A stretch of DNA of 64,000 bases from Loktanella sp. (GTDB taxonomy: Bacteria; Pseudomonadota; Alphaproteobacteria; Rhodobacterales; Rhodobacteraceae), in contig JAFPBO010000031.1 of the NCBI GenBank assembly GCA_017390475.1, positions 62,001 through 126,000 on the forward strand, read 5' to 3'. Positions 43,826-64,000 of this stretch are shown here, piece by piece (position 1 is the first letter of the stretch; the number at the start of each line of letters is the position of its first letter). The notes under the pieces were generated by a model, which searched no databases, was not told where the DNA came from, and saw only the letters and a list, made by a program, of their open reading frames with translations. A program made the position numbers and the translations under genes.

Positions 43826-43872
43826 CTATCCCGCCGGTGATCGGGTTATATCACCAACCTCCCTGTTGGACT

Positions 43873-43900
43873 GCCCGGGCTGCGGCCCGGGCGTTTTTTT
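43873..43900 (+). terminator. rho-independent terminator of cenR
   Basis: GCCCGGGC, 4-nt loop, GCCCGGGC, then G and seven T. Perfect 8-bp stem, 48 nt after the cenR stop and ahead of the rhodanese gene. Confidence 0.92.
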
Positions 43901-46341: not shown

Positions 46342-46555
46342 GGTGGTCCTTTCCGGCGCGCAGTTTCCGATCCGCTGCACGTATGTCGCAAATAACGGGT
46401 CAAGCGGCGGTCTAGCGTCATTTTGGCGATTGTGAAAGTGGGCGGCAGGCTCTATCTGCGTCGGTGGGACACCCTTCCCCAACGAAGGGTATATGTCATT
46501 GGTATATTTCCTTTTATTTACAGTTTGTTAGTTTGATCTGCCGTTTATCTTGTGT

Positions 46556-47521
46556 CTATTTTGTGCCAAAAAGTACATCCGTGATGGTCGGATCGTCCAG
46601 TGCATGGGCGTAATACTTCATCACAGTGGCAACGTCTTTCCAACCACCCCGAACAGCGACGGTCTTCGCATCTACCCCCGCTTGTAGCATTGAGGTCGCA
46701 AACCCATGGCGGCAGCAGTGTGGTGAAAGCTTCTTGATGCCAGCACGTCCTAATACGTTGTTCCAGACCTGACCAACACTTTCACCAGAGGCATACTGAA
46801 ACACCAGATCATCAGGGTTGCGGTTTGAAGGAATGTTAGCCAGCGCAGCAATAACGGGCGACGACAGGTGTGCTTCCCGCTGTTCGTCAATCTTTGTTTG
46901 ATTGATCAGCGCTTTCCTCTGAAACAACTCAACGTCGCTCCATTTAAGAGCGCATGCTTCGCCACGGCGCGCGCCAGTACCAAACATAAATAGGCAAAGG
47001 GCGGCCAAATGGGGCAAGCCATCTTGAGTTGCCTGCGCGGCAAAAGCTTCTACCCAGACTCTCGTGACAGGCGTTTTTCTCTTGGCGTTCACTTTGAAGC
47101 GCTTCACCTTTATCGAGGAACACCAGTCTAGTTCCGCGGCGTAATTTATAATGGCTTGCGCGGGAACGATGCCTTGACGGTTCAGGGTTGCGTTTGCTGC
47201 GGCCGGGTATAGCTTTCGCGCCATCTGTCGAATGGCCTCACCTGTGATCTTAGGGACAAGCGTGTCTTTCCAAAAGTCTTCGATGCGTTCCAGAAATCGG
47301 GGATCTCGTCCCGCTTGCCGATAAGCAATCGCCGCCTGCGCAAACGTCAACGTTGCGCCTGGCCCATCGAGATGACGTTGCCACGCTTTTGTCTCGACTT
47401 CTGCTGCGATCCTTTCCGCAATTTTTTTGTCCGTAGCGCCTGTAGTGCCTCGAAGTCGCCCTCCGGCAACTGTCCCTTGGTAGTGCCATGTTTTGTTGCG
47501 CTTGATGACCTTGAGCGGCAT
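46556..47521 (-). CDS. tyrosine-type site-specific integrase
   Basis: 321 aa. N-terminal arm-binding segment (MPLKVIKRNKTWHYQGTVAG), SAM-like core-binding domain, and the catalytic domain with Arg in FGTGARRGEACALKW, the HxxR box in SPHCCRHGFATSMLQAG, and the terminal GGWKDVATVMKYYAHA holding the Trp/His position and nucleophilic Tyr. Should catalyse integration and excision of the island. The start at 47521 is chosen by domain fit; it lies inside the preceding small gene (different frame), 175 nt overlap. A frame extension to 47587 exists. Confidence 0.93.
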   Translation of the reverse strand: MPLKVIKRNKTWHYQGTVAGGRLRGTTGATDKKIAERIAAEVETKAWQRHLDGPGATLTFAQAAIAYRQAGRDPRFLERIEDFWKDTLVPKITGEAIRQMARKLYPAAANATLNRQGIVPAQAIINYAAELDWCSSIKVKRFKVNAKRKTPVTRVWVEAFAAQATQDGLPHLAALCLFMFGTGARRGEACALKWSDVELFQRKALINQTKIDEQREAHLSSPVIAALANIPSNRNPDDLVFQYASGESVGQVWNNVLGRAGIKKLSPHCCRHGFATSMLQAGVDAKTVAVRGGWKDVATVMKYYAHALDDPTITDVLFGTK

Positions 47522-47691
47522 TCCATCGCCTCCATAAACGCGACCACGTGATGGTCTAACATAATGACTTTCTGCCCAACTTTGCAAAAGACGCCAAGCG
47601 CTCGGACAGTGTCACATACAAAGCGAGGTGACGCGCCAAGTTTCGCTGCTAGTTCTTTTGGCGTGGTGTAGGTTGGAACGATATCAGCCAT
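47347..47691 (-). CDS. excisionase-like DNA-binding protein overlapping the integrase gene
   Basis: 114 aa. The N-terminal 50 residues form a MerR/excisionase-type helix-turn-helix (YTTPKELAAKLGASPRFVCD, then VGQKVIMLDHHVVAFMEAM). The rest is basic, with GTTKGQLPEGDFEALQALRT and ending RGNVISMGQAQR. I recall similar C-termini in small proteins beside Rhodobacteraceae integrases, supporting a real full-length product. The 3' 175 nt also encode the integrase N-terminus in another frame. Its start overlaps the stop region of the upstream small gene by 8 nt, making a tight three-gene integration operon. Confidence 0.65.
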   Translation of the reverse strand: MADIVPTYTTPKELAAKLGASPRFVCDTVRALGVFCKVGQKVIMLDHHVVAFMEAMECRSRSSSATKHGTTKGQLPEGDFEALQALRTKKLRKGSQQKSRQKRGNVISMGQAQR

Positions 47692-51483: not shown

Positions 51484-53169
51484 TCAGGCCTGAAAGTGCG
51501 CTTGAATTTTGTCTTTGACCTTGTCTTTCAGCACTTCCTTGAAGCTCGGCCCTTTCGCGGTCTGATCAGTTCCCCCGGCATCTGAAAATAGCTGCCACAC
51601 TTCAGAAATTGCGTCTGAAACGTCGTCGCTGGAAATTTGATCTTTCAACTTGGAAATTCTATCTGCATTCAAGGAGATGGACTTGGATTTAAGCGCACAA
51701 ACCCAAAAAAGAACGTAAAATCGAATGTTGTTGCTGTCTCTCGCAACAAGCCCATCCGTTTCCTTAAGCCTCAACTCGATCATGCGGATTGTCGAAGCCG
51801 CAACTAAATATGCATCCAAGGCATAAGTGTCTGAAAAAATCGAACTATAAACCGCATCATCTTTAATTAGTGATGAGGGTCGAGCCCTTGCGTTGTCTGG
51901 CTCGCCCCGAAACAACGTCATAACGGCTTGAGCCATTAGTGCTATGCTAATAATTTTTGCAGCAGGCTTACCCTCATTTTTATAGAAATTCTTCCTCCGA
52001 TCATAAAAATATCCATTGGCTTTCAAATGATGCTCAATATCCCTTTGGATTTTGTCAGTCGCCCTGAGAGACGCTAGCGGCACTTGGTTTTGACTATTGG
52101 TTGCCTTAATTATCTTATCTCGAACCTCTTCATTTTCTGAGGCAACCACCTTTACCATCACCGATCTTGGATCATCCCTTTCTAGGCTGGAAAAGAATCT
52201 ACCAATTTCAGAACTTGTTTGCAGGCCATTGACGATCTGGGGATTCTCTATAGTTATAATTGAGCCACCCGAGCTGGCTCGCGATGCAAGTACGGTGACC
52301 CCATTGTTAAACCACCAGAAATCATCGGTTCCGCCACTTTCCAGAGTGTTCGAGATCTCTTGGTTTACTTCAGTTGAACCTTGGTAGTCGCGAACGTTAG
52401 CCTCAAAAAGGTCAGACCGAATTTCTGTCCCGCCACCCAAGAGAAACTTATAGAAATTCCCTAGCTTCACTAACGCTACGTATCCATTGCTTCCATTAAG
52501 GGATTGATCGAAGGTGAGCTCAAAAGTTTGCGTAGGTTTCGTGCGGGCGAGAACCAAGAGTTCCTTCGCCCCCCAAAACTCAAAGTTTACCTTTGCTTCT
52601 TCAAACAGACTTCGCACGACATTGACGAGTTCCTGCGCCTTCAATTGAGTGTTCTGATGTACATCTGCGGTCGACTTGGTACATGCGTATATTACTTTGA
52701 TCTTTAAAGACGGGAATTTTGAGGCAAGTCGTTTGTACGATTTACGAAAAATATCTGCTCGAGATTTTACTTCTGAGTTATACTGTGTCAGCTCATTAAA
52801 ATCCTGAGAAAGGCTCAAAAGACGCCTGAGTGAAGATATCATCTTATCGATCGGCGTTTCAGAAAATCCGCTTGTCGATTTGCTTTGGATGATCACAAGT
52901 TCTAGGTCAGCAGATTTTTTGGGCAGGGTAAAACCGACCTCCTCTCCTACGCACTCGCCATCTAAAAACGTATAAAAGGAATCAATGCCGCCATCGTGTT
53001 CACCGTCAACGATCCCGGCTTGTATTTCCTCATAGGAAAGTTCGTACTCTTTTGTGGCCTGTTCTGCGCAAAAAGCTTCGAAGAAGTCCGGAGGAGACAT
53101 CTCAGGGGCAATCGCTTCGTTTTGATCCTGCAGAACCTGACTAAGGATGATTTCTGAGTTGTCTGCCAT
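51484..53169 (-). CDS. AIPR-family abortive infection/phage resistance protein
   Basis: 561 aa. The AIPR (PF10592) core is clear: DDFWWFNNGVTVLASRASSG near residues 283-300, ENPQIVNGLQTSSEIGRFF, and VASENEEVRDKIIKATNSQN. The N-terminus carries GEHDGGIDSFYTFLDG and, about 30 residues on, LVIIQSKSTSGFSE, the D...QxK arrangement of a restriction-endonuclease-like (Mrr-type) fold. Family members are linked to phage abortive infection; the nuclease role is inferred. The gene is clearly more AT-rich than neighbours on both sides. Start 53169 (MADNSEIILS) is preferred over 53196. Confidence 0.85.
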   Translation of the reverse strand: MADNSEIILSQVLQDQNEAIAPEMSPPDFFEAFCAEQATKEYELSYEEIQAGIVDGEHDGGIDSFYTFLDGECVGEEVGFTLPKKSADLELVIIQSKSTSGFSETPIDKMISSLRRLLSLSQDFNELTQYNSEVKSRADIFRKSYKRLASKFPSLKIKVIYACTKSTADVHQNTQLKAQELVNVVRSLFEEAKVNFEFWGAKELLVLARTKPTQTFELTFDQSLNGSNGYVALVKLGNFYKFLLGGGTEIRSDLFEANVRDYQGSTEVNQEISNTLESGGTDDFWWFNNGVTVLASRASSGGSIITIENPQIVNGLQTSSEIGRFFSSLERDDPRSVMVKVVASENEEVRDKIIKATNSQNQVPLASLRATDKIQRDIEHHLKANGYFYDRRKNFYKNEGKPAAKIISIALMAQAVMTLFRGEPDNARARPSSLIKDDAVYSSIFSDTYALDAYLVAASTIRMIELRLKETDGLVARDSNNIRFYVLFWVCALKSKSISLNADRISKLKDQISSDDVSDAISEVWQLFSDAGGTDQTAKGPSFKEVLKDKVKDKIQAHFQA

Positions 53170-53719
53170 TGGCGAATTTCCTTCCCGCTTCTCCATTCAC
53201 AGAGGTAATGCCCTTCTACAACAACGGCAATGGCGAGTTGTGCTGCGGCAGCATTCTCACCCATGGAAGGCAGGTTTGGGCCGTTGGCTACAGGCTGGGT
53301 TTTCCGCACCAGCGAAATGCTGCGGGGCGGCATTTGGTAGAGTGGGCTCGAAGCGGGATTTCGCCGCGCGCTCTACGATCGTCTGCTGTTAGACAAAAAC
53401 CTATAGTCACAACATGCTGGTCATAAACGGTTCGTTATCGCCGGTGACAGAAACGTATCAGTTTTGTCCAAATTTTCAGCGGAGCTGTTCTTCGCTAGAA
53501 CCTGCTTTCACTGTTCCCGTGGGGAGATCTTGTTCATTCTGTTGATACTCTTTCCTTTGGCCTACATGCCGAGTTTGTCGGGGACACATCCGACCAATGA
53601 CGACGCCCCACGGGGCCATGAAGGACCTCGATCCGCGACAGGTCCAGTCAGACTACCCGACGTAACGAGGGCATCATCCTCGGCTTTGGCGTTTTCATGT
53701 CCCGGAGAAGATCACGCCG
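53170..53719. other. 550-nt region without a supported gene
   Basis: Short frames on both strands lack ribosome sites and family resemblance, and I see no transposase fragment, tRNA or tandem repeat. It lies downstream of the DrmB-like gene and upstream of the AIPR gene, so it probably contains the AIPR promoter and the end of the DISARM-like transcript. Possibly decayed DNA at a module junction. Confidence 0.4.
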
Positions 53720-55480
53720 TTACGTGAGTAAGCGATTGAAAAACGAAAGTGGACCCGCGCTCAGCAAGGTCCGGTCGAGAAATCCGTTCCACGCCTCACA
53801 ACTTGTCTCTGGTAGAAACACACAATTGTGGCACGCAGCATGGTTTCCATTGGAACCGCTTCGCGCCATTCCCTCGGAACAAAGCGGATCGGCCGAGCAT
53901 AGTTCATGGTCGGCCAACGCCTGTAGCACGAGCTGTTCCATCCGCGCTGGCCGGGCCTGCCGCGAAAGACCGCCCATGGTCCCGTCTGCGTCGGGAGTCG
54001 AGGTGTAGATTAACAGTCCCGCCATGTCTGGTCCTACGTAAAGGCGCTCTCGCAACGCACTCGACGAATAACCACTATCGAGTGAGAGTCTTGCTATGAG
54101 AGCATGCGCGAGGGTATGGACGAGCATGTATCGTGCGTTCAATTGGGCCGGCGCACCCTCGGTATGCTTTCCTTCGGCCCGGGTCGTATCGAGGAAAGTA
54201 TTTATTAGCCCTTGAAGGTGATTGGCAACGTGGGGCTTTGTCTCCCACTCGGAAACGGCATCTATGTCCAAGGCAAGAAAAACGCCTTCGCCATGCATTG
54301 CAACGGCCGGCAGCCAAGACAGCGCAGAACGCGACAAAGGCACTGCCTCCGGTTTGCCGCCCACCTGTGCCTTCAGCCTTGTAAACCCGGTCAACGCTCG
54401 CACTTCCCGCAGGCGTTCAACAGAAGAAATCCACGAGATCATACCGTTGAAGGCGGTTGGCACTGGCTGGCGACGGTTTAGCAGGGTCATCGCGTCCGAA
54501 CTTGATGCCGACGTATCCGTTAACAGCATCAGAAACTCGTCGAGCCGAAGGTCACCCTCAGCATCAGTGCCGTCCTGTTTCATTTCCCTGAAGCGTCGGG
54601 CGATTTCCTCTGCGCTCTCGTCACCGTCCCAAGTCGGCAATATCTTCTTCGTTATGAAAGAGACCATCATGGCCTCATCTTCGAGAAAATCGAGCATTTC
54701 GATGAAATCCCCGATCTTTTCCTTGAACGGGACCTTCCAGTCCGGAAGCGTGATCGCGCTCTGCTCAATCGAGAAATATACGTTGCTGGCACCCCGTTGC
54801 GTGATCCGCGGTGCCGCCTCACATCCCATTTCACTGCCTCCAAGCCAAGGCCGCCCACCCCGACATGCGTGCTTAGGGATGCCCCTCGGTGAAAACGCTT
54901 CTGCCATGGAACGACTGCCACCGCAGGATTTACACGTCAGCATCAGCCCACCAATGCCCGCGCCGGTTGTCTGAAGTGCCAGAACGGGCTGCGAGCAGGA
55001 CTCCTTGTGTGTCAGCCAGAATATCCACGGAAAATCATCAAGGTGGCCATTCTCGCAAATCGTCACGAAACGGACTGGCACCACAGCAGGCTTGCCACGG
55101 CACTTGCCGCAATGAAGGCTGGCGCCGTTGCGTGAAGGCGCCCATTGCCCGGAACGATTGATCACGTGGCACTCCGGGCATGAGAGCCAATCCGGAAAGC
55201 GTTCGATCGGCAGTACGCGCTCCCGGGTCTGCCCGTCTTTGAGATAAGTTCCGACCGGAGGTGCCCTGAAATGATCGACACCCAATAGAGCCTCCAGTCG
55301 GGGTTCCCTAACAATATCTTGCTTGTAGCCGCCTTTCGTATAAGCCTCCCAAGCTTCCAGACCCTGCATGACCCCTGAAAGAAGTGCGCCACTTCCCGGC
55401 AAACGGAAGTCAACAATTGCCCCCGGACCGAAAGTCGAGATGATCTGGCTGCGGCGGACACTGCCAACATTCTTGCTCAT
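53720..55480 (-). CDS. drmB: DrmB-like DUF1998 domain protein (DISARM-type)
   Basis: 586 aa. N-terminal SVRRSQIISTFGPGAIVDFR is the typical DrmB opening. Zinc-ribbon-like cysteines occur as LSCPECHVI...HCGKCRGK and TICENGHLDDFPWIFWLTH...CKSCGG. The DUF1998 part has MLVHTLAHALIARLSLDSGY near residue 450, and the C-terminus CHNCVFLPETSCEAWNGFLD completes a CxxC...C pattern. In DISARM, DrmB partners the DrmA helicase to block incoming phage DNA. The start overlaps the drmA-like stop (TAATG), so the two are translationally coupled. Symbol by family resemblance. Confidence 0.88.
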   Translation of the reverse strand: MSKNVGSVRRSQIISTFGPGAIVDFRLPGSGALLSGVMQGLEAWEAYTKGGYKQDIVREPRLEALLGVDHFRAPPVGTYLKDGQTRERVLPIERFPDWLSCPECHVINRSGQWAPSRNGASLHCGKCRGKPAVVPVRFVTICENGHLDDFPWIFWLTHKESCSQPVLALQTTGAGIGGLMLTCKSCGGSRSMAEAFSPRGIPKHACRGGRPWLGGSEMGCEAAPRITQRGASNVYFSIEQSAITLPDWKVPFKEKIGDFIEMLDFLEDEAMMVSFITKKILPTWDGDESAEEIARRFREMKQDGTDAEGDLRLDEFLMLLTDTSASSSDAMTLLNRRQPVPTAFNGMISWISSVERLREVRALTGFTRLKAQVGGKPEAVPLSRSALSWLPAVAMHGEGVFLALDIDAVSEWETKPHVANHLQGLINTFLDTTRAEGKHTEGAPAQLNARYMLVHTLAHALIARLSLDSGYSSSALRERLYVGPDMAGLLIYTSTPDADGTMGGLSRQARPARMEQLVLQALADHELCSADPLCSEGMARSGSNGNHAACHNCVFLPETSCEAWNGFLDRTLLSAGPLSFFNRLLT

Positions 55481-58400
55481 TAGATATCCTCAGCCTCTGA
55501 CAACACAATTTCCTTGATCACGAAGCTCGTCGAAGGCTCAACGGCACGGAGTGTACCGGGGGTGGCGCGCGCCAGCCCCTTGGAAAACCCGGACGCATTC
55601 GATGTTGCCTGAGCATCTGCGGAAACCAGCAAGGCATTGTCTGACCAGTTGTCCCAGTATTTCGCCAAAGCACCACGCCGGTGCCAAAGTTTTAGGAATT
55701 CGCGAAGCTCTTGACGGGCGGCCGCGGCTTCACCCGCATCCACATTGGATATGCGGGCACATATCAGATCAATCAGCGCATCCAGTTCGGCTTGATGCGA
55801 TGCCGCATCAGCAGGACTGTTCAACAAACCGGGAACCAAGTGCCTTGCCATGGCAACAAAAGGAGCGTGGAGAGCCTTATCCCTCGCCCTAGGTGCGAAC
55901 GGGGTAACGCCAGTTGCCTCAACATCCCTATAAAGCGCGCCATGCCAGGTCGGAAAAGTCTCGTAGCGGCTTCGGTCGCGCGATTTGTTCGCATTGTAGA
56001 GTGTGACCACCAGCCCGGGCACCTTTCCACGGCCAACGCGGCTCGTTGCCTGGATGTATTCGGCGATGGTCTTTGGTTGGCCGTTAACCAACATCAAGCC
56101 GAGGCGACCCACGTCCAGACCGACGGAGATCATATTCGAAGCAAGGACAACGTCTGCAGCTTCGCCCGTGTCACGGCTCGCATCCAGTTCAAGAAGCTTT
56201 TCGCGGATTTCGTCTGACTTTACGCGACTGGTGAGTTCGCTTGGTGGCTGAAGATGGCGAGGTGTTTCCTGCCGCCGGGCAGAAACCAGTTCGAGGCTGT
56301 GTTTGACGTCGTCCTGCATGATGATCGAGGCGCTTCCAAGTTCGCGCAGCGAATTGAAATATCCCACCAAAGTCCAGTAATGATCTTCCTCTTCCTTCGC
56401 GAAAGAGGGGTCGGCAGCTGCTTGGAGGAGCGATGACACAATGGCCTGATAGATGTAACTGGCTGTGCGACCAGCTGTGGTTATACCAAGATAAAGCCGA
56501 CCGGGACTGTCTTGTTCTACGCAGGCAAAACCCGAATTGGAATGATGCAACCCAGGCGGTGGGAATTGCATGACGGTACGATTGAACAGGTTCAGGACCT
56601 GATCAGCGGCGCGCCGAATTGTCGCTGTAGACCCGATGACCTTTGGACGGCGGTTATTTCGAGTGCATAAAGCGTCAATGGCAGTCTCAAAAAGCCCTGC
56701 CATGCTGCCCAATGGTCCAGAGATAAGATGCAGTTCATCCTGGATTATGAGGTCGGGCGGCAGGCGCCCAGCATCGCCGAGCCCGAACAGCCGACCTGTT
56801 TCCTTTTTTGTAACGATCTGGACGAACTTATCAGCGGTACCCAGAAGGAGCGTAGGAAGTTCACGGTAAATGTCATCGTCCACTGTCCAGAATGGAAAGT
56901 GGCTGCGGGCTTTGCCTGATCGGCATCTGCTGTCACTACAGCAGGCATGAATCCTGTCGCCACTTTCAGCTACGTCCCATTCCAGATTTGACCCACAGTC
57001 AGGGCAGTGGTCGATCTGGGCAGGAGAGCCCGTCTTTTCTGTTTCGTTTATTTTGTTCGGGGTCGTGTCCCTACCAACCCAGAGACCAATAGAAATGGGT
57101 GAACCGTGCGCGAGTGAGGGCGGGACTGTAATGCCGGGGCACTCATAGTCACCCGTGCGCAACATGTCACTTGCGAGGATCATCGCAGCTGCCCGCTGGA
57201 ACTGCTGCGCCGTTAACAACCGCAGTGTGTATCGCATCAGGACAGTTACGCCTTCGGCTTCCTTGCCACCATGCTGACGCCGGAGGAAAATGGTATAGGC
57301 AGTTAGGAGCAGATACGCTTCTGTCTTGCCGCCTCCGGTAGGGAACCAGAGCAAGTCCATGACGCCACGATCCGGGTGATCTTTGTCGCCGGTCGAGGCC
57401 ATGCAAAGAAGCATAAAGGCCATCTGAAACGGCCGCCAGACCAGTGGTGATAGACGAGAATTCCTCTTTCGCTTCCATTCGTTCTGCAGCCAGAGTGCTC
57501 GGTTGGCAAGACGAAAGGCAGTCATTTCGGGGCCATCTTTACGCAGCAAGTCGACACCACCCTGCATCCTCACAAGTGCTTTTCGACATTCATCCATATG
57601 ACGCCGCGCCGTTTCCTGAAGACCTGATGGCAGGTTTTCCATCTCCTTTTCTCGAGATGAGATCCATTCGGCGTAGCAAACGCAAAGATCATCCAGCGCA
57701 GCGCAGACTTCGGCTGACGACGCAATCGAAAGCCACTCTGATCCCAAAGCCCCTTCCAGCCGTGTCTCCACAAGCCTTCCGAAATGGACAGGGTCGCCCA
57801 ATGGACCAGGGGATCTGACCAAAGAAGACGGAAGCCACTCGGTTGACAATCGTACTGTTCCATCCGGGAGGCGGTCACTTCGGATGGAACAGGTATGGCC
57901 TGCGCCGTAGTCCGGCTCTTCGCGATAGAGAAGCGCTGCGGTTGCGCGGTCGTCATCCGCCATCCGATGTACCGGATCCGGGCGTGGAACGATCACCGAG
58001 AAATCCGGATCTGCTTCAACGCTGAACCCGACCTGATGCAGGTTCCCGATGTCTCGCAAACCGCGCTCAGCTTTCTCGGGCATCACGTTCTTGTTCAGCA
58101 TGATGATTGTCACAAGATAAATGTCGCCGTATCTGCGCCCGCGTACCCATAGAGAAAGGTCCGGAATTTCCGGCACGCTATGTTCGCCGTTCAGGTCCCT
58201 TGGCAATTCGATTGATTTACGTGCAGTCATTGGCGTTCGAACCCAATCGAAGTGCGCCCGCCCATTCTCAGGCACGGCACACGCACGGGCCTCATACCGG
58301 GCAGCAAGAATATCCAGAACAAGTAGAACGTTCTCACCATCTTTTGGGCGCACTGCGAATGACAAACCCGCAGAGCTTGGACGGAATGTGTCCGGCGGAA

Positions 58401-58623
58401 CTCGGGACACGGCCTCATCTTCCTCGTCCGACGCAATATTCGCCTCTTCGGCTTCTTCTGCGCCAAGGGGGTTCTTTTGGGCAAAAAGGACGCCAGTCAT
58501 GTAGATTTCCGACGGGCTGTCATGCAGAATTTCATCTTCTGTCAGGGGACCCATGATATCCTGCCTCAGACGCGCAACGATCCGCTGACGTGCGGCATCC
58601 GCGGAGTTATTGGTCATCGTCAT
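55480..58623 (-). CDS. drmA: DrmA-like superfamily 2 helicase (DISARM-type)
   Basis: 1047 aa. About 420 residues of N-terminal sequence precede the SF2 core. Motif I is DLLWFPTGGGKTEAYL near 427, the DEAH-box variant DLIIQDELHLISGPLG is near 626, motif III STATI follows, and motif VI YIQATSRVGRGKVPGL is near 856. A zinc-type cluster (HCPDCGSNLEW...ACCSDSRCRSG) interrupts the core at about 540-570, as in DrmA. In DISARM the DrmAB complex binds and translocates on DNA. It overlaps the end of the UvrD-like gene by up to 17 nt; an ATG two codons further in (58617) is an alternative. Confidence 0.88.
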   Translation of the reverse strand: MTMTNNSADAARQRIVARLRQDIMGPLTEDEILHDSPSEIYMTGVLFAQKNPLGAEEAEEANIASDEEDEAVSRVPPDTFRPSSAGLSFAVRPKDGENVLLVLDILAARYEARACAVPENGRAHFDWVRTPMTARKSIELPRDLNGEHSVPEIPDLSLWVRGRRYGDIYLVTIIMLNKNVMPEKAERGLRDIGNLHQVGFSVEADPDFSVIVPRPDPVHRMADDDRATAALLYREEPDYGAGHTCSIRSDRLPDGTVRLSTEWLPSSLVRSPGPLGDPVHFGRLVETRLEGALGSEWLSIASSAEVCAALDDLCVCYAEWISSREKEMENLPSGLQETARRHMDECRKALVRMQGGVDLLRKDGPEMTAFRLANRALWLQNEWKRKRNSRLSPLVWRPFQMAFMLLCMASTGDKDHPDRGVMDLLWFPTGGGKTEAYLLLTAYTIFLRRQHGGKEAEGVTVLMRYTLRLLTAQQFQRAAAMILASDMLRTGDYECPGITVPPSLAHGSPISIGLWVGRDTTPNKINETEKTGSPAQIDHCPDCGSNLEWDVAESGDRIHACCSDSRCRSGKARSHFPFWTVDDDIYRELPTLLLGTADKFVQIVTKKETGRLFGLGDAGRLPPDLIIQDELHLISGPLGSMAGLFETAIDALCTRNNRRPKVIGSTATIRRAADQVLNLFNRTVMQFPPPGLHHSNSGFACVEQDSPGRLYLGITTAGRTASYIYQAIVSSLLQAAADPSFAKEEEDHYWTLVGYFNSLRELGSASIIMQDDVKHSLELVSARRQETPRHLQPPSELTSRVKSDEIREKLLELDASRDTGEAADVVLASNMISVGLDVGRLGLMLVNGQPKTIAEYIQATSRVGRGKVPGLVVTLYNANKSRDRSRYETFPTWHGALYRDVEATGVTPFAPRARDKALHAPFVAMARHLVPGLLNSPADAASHQAELDALIDLICARISNVDAGEAAAARQELREFLKLWHRRGALAKYWDNWSDNALLVSADAQATSNASGFSKGLARATPGTLRAVEPSTSFVIKEIVLSEAEDI

Positions 58624-60913
58624 TCGCTTTGCTTCCCTGTCCTCGCGCAACGCCCATAAGGACCGGCAGAAGTGTTACCATGTTGATTTTGCCATCGCTG
58701 CGACGGTCAACCACCGTCGTAGCGCCAACGACCCGCATGGTGCCGCTGGCAAGGCTGCTTCGTGTCGCTTCAATATAGTCGAGATCTTCGGCCAGAGTGC
58801 TGTCTACGCCCGCAAGAGCTTCACCCGAGGCCGAAACGAGGTGCCAAGGCGATCCCTCTTCAGCTGCGACACGCCGGAAAGAGCAGCTCGGCTGCTGAAA
58901 TGCCGCCTCCCACACGGAAAGCGCCGGAGCAATCCCGGGAAGAGGGCGCAGTCCCTCTACACCAGACACCAGAAGGCCACCATCGCTGCCTCGGAGCCAA
59001 CGGCTGCCGTTTCGTCCATCCCGAACAGTGCCTGACTGCGCCCTGCCAAGATAAAGATTCAGCGAAGCCCGTGTTGCGCCAACGAACAGCACCCGGGCTT
59101 CCTCTTGCCAGTCAACGTCATCACCGGATGGAACGGGGGGCAGCATGAGCAGGACGTTTGAAGCCTCTCTGCCTTTAGCGCCGTGGATAGAGCCCAACAA
59201 CGGGCCAGCGGTGCCAACATAATCGCGTGTGTACTGCGCTGGTTTGCGATCGATCATTTCCCCGATGTCTTGAAGACGTGCTGCAGGCCCATTCCCGAGG
59301 GCCTGAAGATCGGCCAAAATGTCCTCTTCGGATGCAATCAGGGCTTGAGGATGCAGGTCGGCCAAGCGACGCCGAATATGGTCCGGCCGCACCGAAGCAT
59401 TTGGGGCAAGCCCGGCGCAAATTGCACCCAACAGGGGATCAAAAACTGACGTCTGGCCCGACAGTTTCATACGATGCACGCGGGCTGCGCGGGTCAGCCG
59501 AGCGGAAGCGGCTACCGTTGCAGCGCGTCCCCGAAACAGGATCAGGCTGTCATCCTTCCATGGAAAAACTGGCCCATTCAAGCTCACATGTGCATCCGTC
59601 GCGACATCTTCGATCATTTCACGCAGCGAAAAATAAGCCGATCGCGGATCAATACCATCTTCAAGCAGCGCCCGGGCCTCCCGGAAGAACTGTTGCAAGG
59701 AAGTCGACCGGGTCCGATGGTTGGCAGTCAATTCGCGGTTTTCCCAACCACGCGCGCCACGAAGTTCGGCATGGAGTGATCCTCCACGCCCTTCGTCGCC
59801 GGCCCATGAACCATAAATCGCCTGTGCGCTGTCGCCCAACACCGTCACACCCACGCTTGCTGGCAGGGCGTCAATAAAGGCGCGACAAAAGATGCGCCTG
59901 TCACCGACGATGTCCTGCGCTTCATCGATTATAAGGTGCGAGATGCGGGACAATTGATCCAGTATGACTTGGTCACCGTCTGCAATGGACCTGTGCGCAG
60001 CGCGGATGATGCGATCATGCCCCCCGGGAGGCGCCTCCCCAAGCGATGTCACGAGGTTCCATGCCATCGAGTCTATGGTTCCGCACATGACACCGGCAGC
60101 GTAGGTATGTTCGCTTAATGCCTCCGAAATACGCCGCCCGATTTCTTCGGCTGCCACCCGGGTAAATGTAATGAGCCGGAGACGCGCGGGAGAAATCCCT
60201 TGTTGAACTAGATGAATGACACGTTCAGCGGCAGTATGTGTCTTGCCGCTGCCCGGTCCGGCAGTGACGATCTGTCTTGCACTTGCCGGACGCTCGATGA
60301 CAGCCGACTGTGACAGATCTGGCGTTCTTCCCTCCCTACGGGGCCGCGGAAAATGCTCATGCAGCCAGTTTGAAGCATCTTGGGGGACCGGACTGCCGGG
60401 CAGAACGCCTGCGAGGCACAACAAGCGCGTTACGGCATCTGAGCAGGCAGCATTCATAAACCAGACCCTTGCGTCCAGAACCTGCCAAAGTGCAACAAGG
60501 TCCGCATCAGAAAGTAGCCCAACCGCGTCGAACAAACCAAAGACATCATTCGGGAGTTCATCAGTGACCCGCAACAGACCATGAGGCTCGCCTTGCGAAG
60601 GGTCGCCACCGAGTAGAATACACTGATCGCCACTATATAGAACCGACACCGCCCGCCTCTTCAGCAAAACCTTGTCGCCATATGACTGACCGGAACCGAT
60701 GTCTCCACATTTGACCAGCGCAGACACCACGATCTTCGCCTGAACCTCCGCTTCAATCTCAGACATTCCGTCTGCGACCGCAGCGGCTACAAGGCTTGTG
60801 ACTGCGCGTGACTTTGGCACTGCACCGAGGTCATGAAGGTCCCTACGCAGTTGCGCCGCAAGTTTCTGGCTTGGAGCGAGGGCGTCCAGCGTGTCGGTGT
60901 CACTGTTTTGCAT
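58607..60913 (-). CDS. UvrD/Rep-like superfamily 1 helicase with unknown N-terminal domain
   Basis: 768 aa. SF1 motifs are intact: I IVTAGPGSGKTHTAAERVI (about 213-231), Ia RLITFTRVAAEEIGRR, II HLIIDEAQDIVGDR (about 325), III VTVLGDSAQAIYGSW, V GSIHGAKGREASNVLLM (about 570), VI VLFVGATRASLNLYLGRA. The first 210 residues (with AVSVLYSGDQCILLGGDPSQ) do not match the usual UvrD N-terminus, and I see no fused nuclease. First gene of the three-gene overlapping operon with drmA/drmB-like genes, implying a joint function. No strong Shine-Dalgarno. Confidence 0.85.
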   Translation of the reverse strand: MQNSDTDTLDALAPSQKLAAQLRRDLHDLGAVPKSRAVTSLVAAAVADGMSEIEAEVQAKIVVSALVKCGDIGSGQSYGDKVLLKRRAVSVLYSGDQCILLGGDPSQGEPHGLLRVTDELPNDVFGLFDAVGLLSDADLVALWQVLDARVWFMNAACSDAVTRLLCLAGVLPGSPVPQDASNWLHEHFPRPRREGRTPDLSQSAVIERPASARQIVTAGPGSGKTHTAAERVIHLVQQGISPARLRLITFTRVAAEEIGRRISEALSEHTYAAGVMCGTIDSMAWNLVTSLGEAPPGGHDRIIRAAHRSIADGDQVILDQLSRISHLIIDEAQDIVGDRRIFCRAFIDALPASVGVTVLGDSAQAIYGSWAGDEGRGGSLHAELRGARGWENRELTANHRTRSTSLQQFFREARALLEDGIDPRSAYFSLREMIEDVATDAHVSLNGPVFPWKDDSLILFRGRAATVAASARLTRAARVHRMKLSGQTSVFDPLLGAICAGLAPNASVRPDHIRRRLADLHPQALIASEEDILADLQALGNGPAARLQDIGEMIDRKPAQYTRDYVGTAGPLLGSIHGAKGREASNVLLMLPPVPSGDDVDWQEEARVLFVGATRASLNLYLGRAQSGTVRDGRNGSRWLRGSDGGLLVSGVEGLRPLPGIAPALSVWEAAFQQPSCSFRRVAAEEGSPWHLVSASGEALAGVDSTLAEDLDYIEATRSSLASGTMRVVGATTVVDRRSDGKINMVTLLPVLMGVARGQGSKANDDDQ

Positions 60914-61018
60914 TTCGCGCTTTGTTCATCCTAAAGTAGTGGTATGCTAATTGAAACGTGCCACGATCCGTACCAAAAATATAGCAATATCATTGGCATC
61001 CGCAGACGAAATGAAGAG

Positions 61019-63958
61019 ATGACTGACTTGTTGGCCAGTGAGAACCTGCTGGCAGAGAATTTTGCAGACCTGTCTCAGCAACGGGATGGTGGCGCTGTAT
61101 ACCTTATTGAACACGGCCTTTCCCGTGATCAACTCGAGGAATTATTTTATCTCGTAGGCCATAGGGCCGAGCGGCGGCAGTTTGCAAAGCGGGCGTGGGA
61201 AGATTACCCACTGTCGATCTGTGTGGCGGTTACGGAAATCGGCTACCATTACAGAGGTACCGGCACAGACTTCTGGCCAATGCTTGAATCTGCGATGAAA
61301 ATCGAAATCCCCATCCCCCAACGGAGCGTGATCTCCGATTTATTCCGGTACTGCGCAAAGCACTATGGAACGGCGCGACCGCTTGACGACGCGTGGACTT
61401 CGGTCTTCCCGCACATTGCATGGCCCGTCCGCAATGCCATGGTGCCGCGAGAGATACACGGATCATTGGCACGCCTGGTCAGAGAATTTCTGTCCCAGAC
61501 CCGTGGCATAAGCGTAACCCGCGCCACATTGCCCGGTCTGCGCGAACTTGCGAGGGGCTTCGGGTCCCGAAGGCTGGAGTCATGGCTTCAGGATGAGGAC
61601 CTTGCGCTCTCGGTGATTGGCTACCTCGTGTCAGGTCGCATTGGCGAATTAAGTAAGGAACAGGGTTTCATGCAGCGCCTTGGAAATGATCTGCGTTCCG
61701 AAAGCGAAGTCAGACGCCTTGAACGCATCATCAGGGCCCGACGGCTCGCCATGCATCAGGGGCTGGGCAGCCTTCCAAAGGCAAGATACGAACTCTTGCT
61801 TGATGACGCGGAAGCCCGAGGGCTGGCTGTCAGGGGGCCGAACTTGGCACCCGTAGAAATCGAAGCGGTCAGGGCTGAGCTTGATGTTCCATTATCGAGT
61901 CTGACAGTTAATGTCGGCGCAAGATCCACAACGCTCGAGCGTTTCCTCGGCGGTGATATTGTGTTTATCGGACGCCCAATTGGCGAGGTTCCCCATCCGC
62001 GTCTCATCGAGCTTGATATGCCCGAATGGCTGAAAGCAGCAATCGTTCCTGCTCCCGGGTTGCTTTTTCGAGATGAGGGCGATGATGGTTACCAAACGCA
62101 ACTGAGACCGTCCGACAGAGTGACAGCAGGAATCTCATTTTACGAACAGGCTCTCGAGGGGCTGACGCCCGACGACTGGGGAGACGGGCTATATCATTTC
62201 GTGAGCGGAACGCCGGACGGCGACAAGGCGTTGGCAAGACATGGCCTTCATGTCGAAGCTGGGCAGATTGTCGAATTTCGGGGTGGTCTGACCCTGCATC
62301 ATGACGGCACCACTGTAGGTCAGGCGTCTGGACGCCCGGCTCAGGCGCTGCCGGGGATCCCCTTGATGATTGTCGCAGAACGCTTGGACGGGTCGGAAAC
62401 CGTCGAGTTCCCGCTATCGGACAACCGCTGGAATGCGCTCCCCATGACGGAAGGTATCTGGACGCTTTCCTCGGCAGGCACGTCCAAGATCCCGCCGATT
62501 GATCTGGTGTTCCGTGAGATAGAACCGCCTGAACCAGTTGCCCTATCCCTTCAGCCAGAAAGCATTGGCCTTTCGGAACTCGCACGAGGGGCGGGCGCGT
62601 TGCACATTTCTTCGCCCATCACACTGCATGAGGTCGACATCATTTGCGCGCTCGAGTCCAGTGACGGCCAGTCCAAAGTCGTTTGTGTCCGCGCAACGAC
62701 TTCGCCGGCCAAGGTTGCTTTTGATGGACCAGAGTTCTTCGAAATGCGCGCTGCCGCACGCCTCTGGAGTGGTGGCGGCATGCGCGCCAGACTGCGGGTC
62801 CGCGCGGCAGGGCTGGACGACCGATCTTGGACTTTGAAAGCCCCAGAACTGGAATGGACATATGAGCGCAGCAGCGGTCAATGGACCGGAATAGGCCAAA
62901 CGCCGCTTGGCTCGCTCGAATGTGATCCGGTGACATCCTGCACAACATTCGTGCAGCGGGATCCTACACCAGCGAGGCCGTCACCAGAATACAGGCTGCT
63001 CCGTCCGAATACCCCGAGCGATAGCGCCTTGAGAAATTGCATTCTGGAAGAGCCCACAGCAGACATGTCATTGGCGGAGCTGCCCCGTGCCATCGCGGAT
63101 CCAATCCTCCGGCTTTCCGAGGCTGGTGCTGGTGGCGGCTCTCTGATGAAAGGGTTGGATGCCTATCTCTGCTGGCGACTGGCGACGGCCGAGACTGCGA
63201 TTGGCGAAGCCCTTCGAACAAGCGCGAGCAGACGAGTTGAGGACCGACTGGTTGCCGCTCTATGTGGTAACCATTGGATGAAAACGGAAAAGGCCTGTCG
63301 TGGACTGGGCACGAGCTTCCATCAGCGCCTTGTAGCGGAAGCCGTCAATGAAGGCCTTGCCTGTGACACCACGGCTTTCTCACCGCTGACCGAGGGTGAG
63401 AGACGTGACTTGATCATTCTTTTGGAGGACGGCTTCCGTCGCGCACTGCCTGCGCCGGACTTGATCGTCGTTCCTGACGGCGAGATGTGGCCCGAGTTGG
63501 ACGATGCCGTGCTTGATGCGTGGGAGAAACTGTCAGAGAAATCTGTTTCAGCGGGAGGATCTGAATTGGAATTCGACGCGGGTAACGCCGATGGTCTCTG
63601 GCAGAAGCTTGTGGTGCGTGCCCGCGAAGCAGCACGTCTTCCTGAACTGACTGCGCTCATACTGCCTTCCCTGCGTGCCAACAGCCTTGAAAGGGTGCCG
63701 TACGAGTCCAGCCATCTGGATGACCTTATTGCGGCTTTGGTTTCAAGCCATGCAGACGTTCAGTCTCGCAGCGGGCGCTGGATAACTCCTGCTGATCTGC
63801 GAACTCTGTTGCACCTGTTCCTTGCGCCGGAACGCGTCATGGATGACCCGGAATGGCGAGGCAGACTGCTACGTTTCGGGGCAGACCGTTTCACTGCACG
63901 CGCCGTGCGCTATACAGCCTTGCGCTATCGCGCGACGACAAGTGTTGCCCTTCAATGA
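61019..63958 (+). CDS. large protein of unknown family (about 980 aa), divergent from the DISARM-like operon
   Basis: 979 aa from the ATG at 61019 (MTDLLASENLLAENFADLSQ); an ATG at 60944 would add 25 residues but the AT-rich DNA there looks like promoter. No P-loop, nuclease, methyltransferase or membrane motif is visible. An N-terminal region with FWPMLESAMKIEIPIPQRSV and SVFPHIAWPVRNAMVPREIH looks helical. The middle (about 320-680) is beta-rich, with LVFREIEPPEPVALSLQPES, like a repeat-type binding or scaffold region. The C-terminal third is helical. Its stop overlaps the next start (ATGA). Context suggests a sensor or target-recognition subunit; function unknown. Confidence 0.8.
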   Translation: MTDLLASENLLAENFADLSQQRDGGAVYLIEHGLSRDQLEELFYLVGHRAERRQFAKRAWEDYPLSICVAVTEIGYHYRGTGTDFWPMLESAMKIEIPIPQRSVISDLFRYCAKHYGTARPLDDAWTSVFPHIAWPVRNAMVPREIHGSLARLVREFLSQTRGISVTRATLPGLRELARGFGSRRLESWLQDEDLALSVIGYLVSGRIGELSKEQGFMQRLGNDLRSESEVRRLERIIRARRLAMHQGLGSLPKARYELLLDDAEARGLAVRGPNLAPVEIEAVRAELDVPLSSLTVNVGARSTTLERFLGGDIVFIGRPIGEVPHPRLIELDMPEWLKAAIVPAPGLLFRDEGDDGYQTQLRPSDRVTAGISFYEQALEGLTPDDWGDGLYHFVSGTPDGDKALARHGLHVEAGQIVEFRGGLTLHHDGTTVGQASGRPAQALPGIPLMIVAERLDGSETVEFPLSDNRWNALPMTEGIWTLSSAGTSKIPPIDLVFREIEPPEPVALSLQPESIGLSELARGAGALHISSPITLHEVDIICALESSDGQSKVVCVRATTSPAKVAFDGPEFFEMRAAARLWSGGGMRARLRVRAAGLDDRSWTLKAPELEWTYERSSGQWTGIGQTPLGSLECDPVTSCTTFVQRDPTPARPSPEYRLLRPNTPSDSALRNCILEEPTADMSLAELPRAIADPILRLSEAGAGGGSLMKGLDAYLCWRLATAETAIGEALRTSASRRVEDRLVAALCGNHWMKTEKACRGLGTSFHQRLVAEAVNEGLACDTTAFSPLTEGERRDLIILLEDGFRRALPAPDLIVVPDGEMWPELDDAVLDAWEKLSEKSVSAGGSELEFDAGNADGLWQKLVVRAREAARLPELTALILPSLRANSLERVPYESSHLDDLIAALVSSHADVQSRSGRWITPADLRTLLHLFLAPERVMDDPEWRGRLLRFGADRFTARAVRYTALRYRATTSVALQ

Positions 63959-64000
63959 AACCCCTTCAACTCATCCAATCAGGCTTTCACGCCCTTGAAA
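63955..64000 (+). CDS. gene truncated by the window end (first 15 codons)
   Basis: ATG at 63955 overlaps the preceding TGA (ATGA), giving MKPLQLIQSGFHALE and continuing past the edge. Translational coupling with the large unknown protein marks it as part of the same operon. Too short to identify. Confidence 0.6.
   Translation, partial: MKPLQLIQSGFHALE

Follow-up and report, generated by a model that had tools for sequence, protein, structure and literature searches.

A common helicase family links DISARM, Druantia, Dpd and ARMADA, and how each of these systems picks out foreign DNA is still open. The DrmAB pair of DISARM is reported to bind 5' single-stranded overhangs and to be less active on methylated DNA, and DrmC is dispensable and often missing (available part of PMC9142583). 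ARMADA is reported to be direct and non-abortive; its type II form has a BrxHII/RapA-like SNF2 protein, a YprA helicase and a GajB-like UvrD with an N-terminal extension, and its own traits are a PglX-like methylase and a YprA helicase fused to DUF1998 plus a Vsr-type nuclease. The same report, in its available part, describes BRIGADE and TALON and counts many DISARM-like classes as uncharacterised (PMC12458937). A DISARM-like system beside McrBC is mentioned in the available part of another (PMC11090510). Here we analyzed a gene cluster at the right-hand end of a 64,000-nucleotide stretch of Loktanella sp. DNA (the window, C19:62001-126000 of a 270,153-base contig). It encodes a DrmA-like and a UvrD-like helicase, DrmB, a large protein of no recognised family that we call UNK, and an SNF2-family helicase.

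From sequence comparison, this cluster probably defends against phages (or against foreign DNA) as a YprA-helicase system that is nearest to DISARM and composed of two modules. UNK also occurs in Druantia-like operons, so the cluster appears to be a relative of known defence systems that is built in mix-and-match fashion and has so far gone undescribed. It would be one candidate, with a parts list, among the DISARM-like classes that the available part of PMC12458937 leaves uncharacterised. In the literature searched, we recognised no publication describing this gene set, which says nothing beyond that literature.

The gene cluster compared with DISARM and its relatives

Three minus-strand genes overlap: DrmB, a DUF1998/MZB zinc protein of 586 residues with CxxC motifs (53720-55480); a DrmA-like superfamily 2 helicase of the YprA family (55480-58650), of at most 1056 residues because its TTG start is unsure; and a UvrD-like superfamily 1 helicase of 768 residues (58607-60913). 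The DrmB and DrmA genes share one base, and the DrmA and UvrD genes overlap by up to 44 bases, depending on that TTG. UNK is divergent to them on the plus strand (61019-63958). Its open reading frame (ORF) spans 60944-63958 (1004 residues), and the most likely start, as in close relatives, is the ATG at 61019, giving 979 residues. An ATGA at 63955-63958 contains both the UNK stop and the start of the SNF2-family gene, also on the plus strand, which encodes 928 residues and runs from 63955 to extended position 66741 (L002:5956-8742; extended coordinates are L002 positions plus 57999), so that the window holds only 63955-64000 of it. ORFs were taken from the first possible start codon, and some N-terminal lengths are thus too long. 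ORFs and profiles bear out the first-pass annotation, which was made from the window alone and had proposed overlapping UvrD-like, DrmA and DrmB genes beside a divergent protein of about 980 residues coupled to a further gene off the window; that gene is the SNF2-family helicase.

DrmB scored 473 bits against NCBIfam DrmB_fam (NF038324, cut-off 240), 258 bits against PADLOC DrmB and 38 bits against Pfam MZB. DrmA reached 672 bits against PADLOC DrmA and 826 bits against NCBIfam DrmAS, below the curated cut-off of 950, which marks it as a divergent DrmA member; its GGGKT and DELH motifs are kept. The UvrD-like helicase (Pfam UvrD-helicase, 74 bits) has its Walker A motif at residue 219, behind an N-terminal domain of about 200 residues typical of UNK-linked copies. 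The SNF2 protein matched Pfam SNF2-rel_dom with 40 bits; its best PADLOC match was DpdE (107 bits), followed by DrmD (78 bits), and NCBIfam DpdE, whose cut-off is 500, gave 139 bits. In alignments, the motor motifs of the UvrD and SNF2 proteins are intact.

As first described, UNK belongs to no recognised family: it matched none in Pfam, PADLOC or NCBIfam at E<=1 or in PHROGs at E<=0.01, and its profile showed no relation to one DrmMI (hhalign 0.1%). The AlphaFold2 model (mean predicted local distance difference test score, pLDDT, 77; predicted template modelling score, pTM, 0.44) has helices at 1-250, a beta-rich part at 256-680 and helices at 709-974. Fold comparison likened the middle part to Ig/complement-type sandwiches with middling scores. 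Modelled alone, the N-terminal 260 residues are almost wholly helical (pLDDT 88, pTM 0.86), and their invariant residues include H32, E73, Y76, Y78, G80, G82-P87, W126 and W135-P136. In these models, UNK looks like a scaffold with Ig-like domains and no recognised enzyme fold.

The locus resembles DISARM in its separate, adjacent DrmA and DrmB genes and in having an SNF2 helicase and a C5 methylase nearby. It differs by adding the UvrD-like helicase and UNK, by its two divergent gene blocks, and by the NERD nuclease gene of 14 of the 26 related loci described below. The methylase is Dcm-like with an N-terminal helix-turn-helix (L002:10792-12012, extended 68791-70011, minus strand; Pfam DNA_methylase, 277 bits). 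It is found 4.8-6 kb beyond the edge of the window, on the strand opposite to SNF2, in a convergent methylase/Vsr/MvaI-BcnI unit, and PADLOC scored it higher as a generic MTase_II (491 bits) than as the DrmMII of class 2 (448 bits). The class 1 protein DrmD is a poor match for the SNF2 protein (74.9 bits against an NCBIfam cut-off of 610), and no adenine methylase or PglX-like DrmMI was found among the neighbours scanned. Nor was the class 2 protein DrmE found: UNK has no PADLOC family at E<=1, and the cluster has no other unassigned large gene. For DrmC, no match to the phospholipase D family appeared among 18 distinct neighbour proteins scanned with Pfam, and DrmC was not among the matches listed for 13 distinct ones scanned with PADLOC, smaller ORFs being outside these scans. 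The earlier view of a DISARM-related locus that is no standard class 1 or class 2 operon holds, with DrmAB found and DrmD, DrmMI and DrmE not, and the right flank shows neither DrmC nor the DISARM gene order. Of its statement that neither DrmC nor a methylase is visible, the first half stands for the neighbours scanned. The second was an effect of the window edge, because the C5 methylase lies beyond it.

Other defence systems share single features with the locus. Compared with type II ARMADA, DUF1998 is here the separate DrmB gene, and UNK stands beside SNF2 in the place of PglX, no PglX-like gene being found among the neighbours scanned. The locus resembles Dpd in the DpdE match of the SNF2 gene; no gene for 7-deazaguanine insertion turned up among the neighbours scanned, to which that search was confined. 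For Gabija, the UvrD-like helicase gave only local GajB matches (best 65.5 bits), and no GajA-like protein was found among the neighbours scanned. Compared with Druantia, the window has DrmAB and UvrD instead of DruE, DruD and DruA, and DruE was not named in the Pfam and PADLOC scans of window and flank proteins.

Conservation of UNK and exchange of its partner helicases

We scanned one genome per species (84,980 species) with patterns from a four-member UNK alignment, which yielded 36 loci from named genomes. The UvrD gene is divergent to UNK in 26 of them (L016-L039, L041, L042), with DrmA in 25 and DrmB in 24 of these 26; L016 is cut by a contig end, and L037 has a transposase-like ORF at the expected place of DrmA. 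The four genes of the window thus do co-occur, and the earlier argument that the UvrD-like helicase belongs with the system is upheld. In eight further loci (L040, L044-L049, L051), a DruE-like helicase of the Druantia kind replaces the UvrD partner, so UNK is not tied to DISARM alone; the other two (L043, L050) are cut. The 26:8 ratio of DrmAB to DruE is biased, because three of the proteins behind the patterns came from DrmAB loci and one from a DruE locus. The SNF2 gene follows UNK in 35 of the 36 loci. Downstream flanks vary among the loci compared, which bounds the gene set on that side. Some cluster genes are broken or split (several in L008, UNK in L025 and L050, NERD in L033).

The association with Druantia-like genes takes several forms. 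On Nitrosococcus watsonii pNWAT01 (L060), UNK lies between DruA and DruD-DruE, as in a type I-like Druantia operon, and presumably occupies the place where DruB and DruC would stand; it matches the UNK of genome G138 with an hhalign probability of 99.6% and 61% identity. UNK follows DruA in G138 (700 bits) and precedes DruD in G178 (420 bits), and L010, L040, L045 and L046 combine UNK-SNF2 with NERD, DruD-like and DruE genes.

We then compared the phylogeny of UNK with that of SNF2. The UNK tree had 40 rows, leaving out L001, L002, L004, L005, L008, L014, L025, L043 and L050 as window copies, fragments or genes that are interrupted or incomplete; the SNF2 tree had 36. Both trees require a single change of partner type, DrmAB or DruE (support 90/89 for UNK and 100/99 for SNF2, with a long-branch warning), as expected of a co-inherited pair. 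Among 72,556 plasmid records, tblastn found UNK in six, all alphaproteobacterial; five of them were taken into the comparison, the sixth (H2) being a repeat of H1.

The motor genes also occur by themselves. R. rhizogenes pC5.7d (L052) and Shinella sp. PSBB067 (L053) carry a UvrD-DrmA-DrmB-NERD cassette, adjoining a DUF2357 (McrC-like) gene or a pair of genes like type III restriction-modification (R-M), with Vsr and distant C5 methylases near. These McrBC- and type III R-M-linked cassettes share the motor genes with the UNK loci and differ from them in having no UNK-SNF2 and no long N-terminal extension on UvrD. The analysis leaves out a second R. rhizogenes plasmid (H52) and locus L061. At least 218 residues precede the UvrD Walker A motif in all 28 UNK-linked copies with a matched motif, compared with 98 and 33 in L052 and L053. 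Thirty UNK-linked copies were listed for this count; L008 is broken, and the Walker pattern missed L034 and a UNK-less Tsukamurella UvrD. In Shinella, the type III R-M-like pair lies immediately upstream of the cassette (L053:4885-10982). The Tsukamurella plasmid (L054) carries an actinobacterial UvrD-DrmA-DrmB set beside a DEAD/DEAH helicase and a large 'restriction endonuclease subunit M' gene, along with a Zn-binding helicase-like gene and more UvrD genes; two YprA-type systems may adjoin each other here.

Paracoccus sp. JM45 (L039) combines the two kinds of locus. Its UNK is 95% identical to that of Paenochrobactrum (L029) and 91% to that of Yoonia (L027); its SNF2 (95-96%) and residues 1-207 of its UvrD (85-90%) likewise match these two. 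The remainder matches the UNK-less Shinella locus: UvrD residues 208-810 (80%), DrmA (85%), DrmB (93%) and residues 1-113 of NERD (74%). The lineage switch sits at a domain border of UvrD, so this natural chimera marks two exchangeable modules, and the near-identical UNK in different families points to recent transfer. The chimera is the strongest sign we have of a functional link between UNK-SNF2 and the N-terminal domain of UvrD.

Proposed mechanism and competing explanations

By analogy with DrmAB (PMC9142583) and ARMADA (PMC12458937), as far as the available parts of these reports go, we propose that a recognition/loading module of UNK and the SNF2-family translocase would find or remodel invading DNA. 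The motor module would consist of DrmA, DrmB as a separate zinc 'canopy' and the UvrD-like helicase, with the NERD PD-(D/E)xK nuclease where present, and the UvrD N-terminal domain may dock it to UNK-SNF2. DrmAB and UvrD would then translocate along the DNA, block replication and pass the DNA to an attached nuclease for degradation; in the window copy, the AIPR protein or restriction endonuclease described below is a guess for that role. Protection of the host's own DNA would most likely come from C5 methylation, with the Dcm-like methylase next to the cluster as the enzyme.

More tentatively, UNK-SNF2 might be a portable recognition/loading module that fits more than one YprA-family motor, either DrmAB-UvrD or DruE, and the N-terminal domain of UvrD would be its adaptor. 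On this view, DISARM-like and Druantia-like systems could be variants of one interchangeable architecture, and UNK a new foreign-DNA recognition class without a known enzyme fold. Since UNK pairs with both kinds of motor and the chimera marks the joint, such a module would offer a direct handle on target choice.

The methylase is enriched in genomes that carry the cluster. Searches at E<=1e-60 found close orthologues in 18 of the 25 cluster genomes (25 of the 26 UvrD-linked loci, leaving out L018) compared with 16 of 288 other genomes of the class, a roughly 13-fold excess of the window-type methylase over the class sample. Some methylase match is present in all 25 at E<=0.001. One of the 16 methylase-positive class genomes, G138, is the one carrying UNK with DruA and also DruE. 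MvaI, BcnI and EcoRII have CCWGG/CCSGG specificity, and the DrmMII of one published class 2 DISARM reportedly has it too.

Several observations weigh against the two-module defence system proposed here. The Fisher test for methylase enrichment (p = 9e-15) overstates the case, given the relatedness among the genomes and the unequal composition of the two samples. By hand comparison of distances, the methylase is no more than 15 kb from UNK in just 11 of the 25 cluster genomes, and in four others (G292, G302, G304, G306) no such gene is close to UNK although the contigs are long; seven of the 14 genomes without one within 15 kb have short contigs or contig ends there, and G300, G303 and G305 have a weakly similar C5-methylase-like ORF within 14 kb. 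Among the 288 class genomes, UNK occurs in two (both with DruE) and the UvrD gene in one (G045, with no DrmA match), so the DrmAB form of the system is rare; DrmA occurs in six. Only four of the eight plasmid records with a long UvrD match (at least 54% of the query) carry UNK, which suggests that the UvrD-DrmA half works, or at least persists, without it. The chimera is known from one draft genome, where L039:5390-9822 holds two tandem UvrD genes, one chimeric and the second lacking the extension. Fold comparison, in which the separate N-terminal model took no part, assigned UNK no enzyme or DNA-binding fold. Finally, the window copy has no NERD, so that its nuclease is a guess.

The strongest competitor holds that the type II R-M island (Dcm-like methylase, Vsr, MvaI/BcnI) is the defence and that the helicase cluster lies next to it in a defence island but is independent of it. 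The methylase/Vsr/MvaI-BcnI unit is complete by itself, and the 14 genomes without a close methylase orthologue within 15 kb, half of them affected by short contigs or contig ends, fit such independence. We nevertheless find this explanation doubtful, given the methylase enrichment and the recurrence of C5 methylases next to the cluster in varying contexts: a methylase-Vsr-MvaI/BcnI set in TA1, an EcoRII-N protein with an SNF2 helicase in six Roseobacter-clade genomes, and the Vsr and distant C5 methylases near the UNK-less L052 and L053.

An ordinary class 2-like DISARM with acquired neighbours, in which DrmAB and a DrmMII-like methylase act and UvrD, UNK and SNF2 are separate or auxiliary, would account for the DrmAB core, the DrmMII score of the methylase and the enrichment of C5 methylases with the cluster. 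However, the arrangement of UNK, SNF2 and UvrD is constant in 26 of 36 loci while the downstream flanks vary among the loci compared, neither DrmE nor DrmC was found among the neighbours scanned, MTase_II outscores DrmMII and some genomes have no such methylase near, so we regard this explanation as quite unlikely. A DNA-repair or replication-fork machine of mobile elements, serving for example conjugative transfer, would suit the repair roles also reported for YprA-family helicases (PMC12458937, available part) and the integrative element with a relaxase that carries the window copy, but it is very unlikely given that the curated profiles which come nearest belong to defence proteins of DISARM, Dpd and Druantia, that R-M and abortive-infection genes are among the neighbours and that UNK also stands in DruA-DruD-DruE operons.

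Candidate nucleases and the integrative element

NERD (PD-(D/E)xK plus helicase) follows DrmB in the 14 DrmAB loci mentioned above, and its ExK motif is kept in the five copies inspected. It is found in none of the nine loci of the window's clade with sequence past DrmB (L017-L025). In the window, DrmB is adjoined by an AIPR/AbiU-family protein (51484-53196, minus strand; PADLOC AbiU 628 bits, Pfam AIPR 149 bits) with a DGGID...IIQSK motif, which we take to resemble a PD-(D/E)xK site. This protein possibly stands in for the NERD nuclease; ORF scoring of the 36 UNK loci did not find it in the related ones. On the other side of the cluster, beyond the window, the MvaI/BcnI-family endonuclease (L002:9017-10408, minus strand; Pfam MvaI_BcnI, 124 bits) and the Vsr endonuclease (L002:10317-10799, minus strand; 108 bits) precede the methylase, past which come a relaxase and then a RepC-like protein.

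In seven of the nine window-clade loci (L018-L020, L022-L025), the first ~2.7 kb of the locus hold an SNF2 helicase of about 606-642 residues that converges on DrmB, with an HNH-type protein in front of it in six of those seven; families were assigned by running profiles on the L018 and L020 proteins. A strong EcoRII-N orthologue lies near the cluster in six of 26 searched genomes, all of the window's clade, and G297 has a weak seventh match on another contig; this search did not find one in the window's own genome. The converging SNF2 with its HNH-type and EcoRII-N neighbours is possibly a separate small restriction module.

The window cluster is carried by an integrative element of 27.4 kb that is inserted in the serC leader. 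An exact 28-base-pair direct repeat, the attachment (att) site, lies at 46462-46489 and recurs outside the window at L002:15833-15860 (extended 73832-73859). The two copies flank a tyrosine integrase (46556-47587, minus strand; Pfam Phage_integrase, 96 bits), a ParA-like protein, AIPR, the cluster, the R-M genes, the relaxase and RepC. The repeat corresponds to the 5' end of the serC leader RNA (RF00517), which scored 69 bits at the right and 44.5 bits at the left; the element separates serB from serC, and a partial leader copy remains at its left end. Among 12 genomes of the same genus, three have the flanks joined in one piece and six have them within ~1.2 kb on one contig, so the integration site is empty in at least nine; in the remaining three, only one flank was found or the flanks lie on different contigs. 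Upstream of the element, at 43828-43898, is a SorX small RNA (RF02784, 74 bits).

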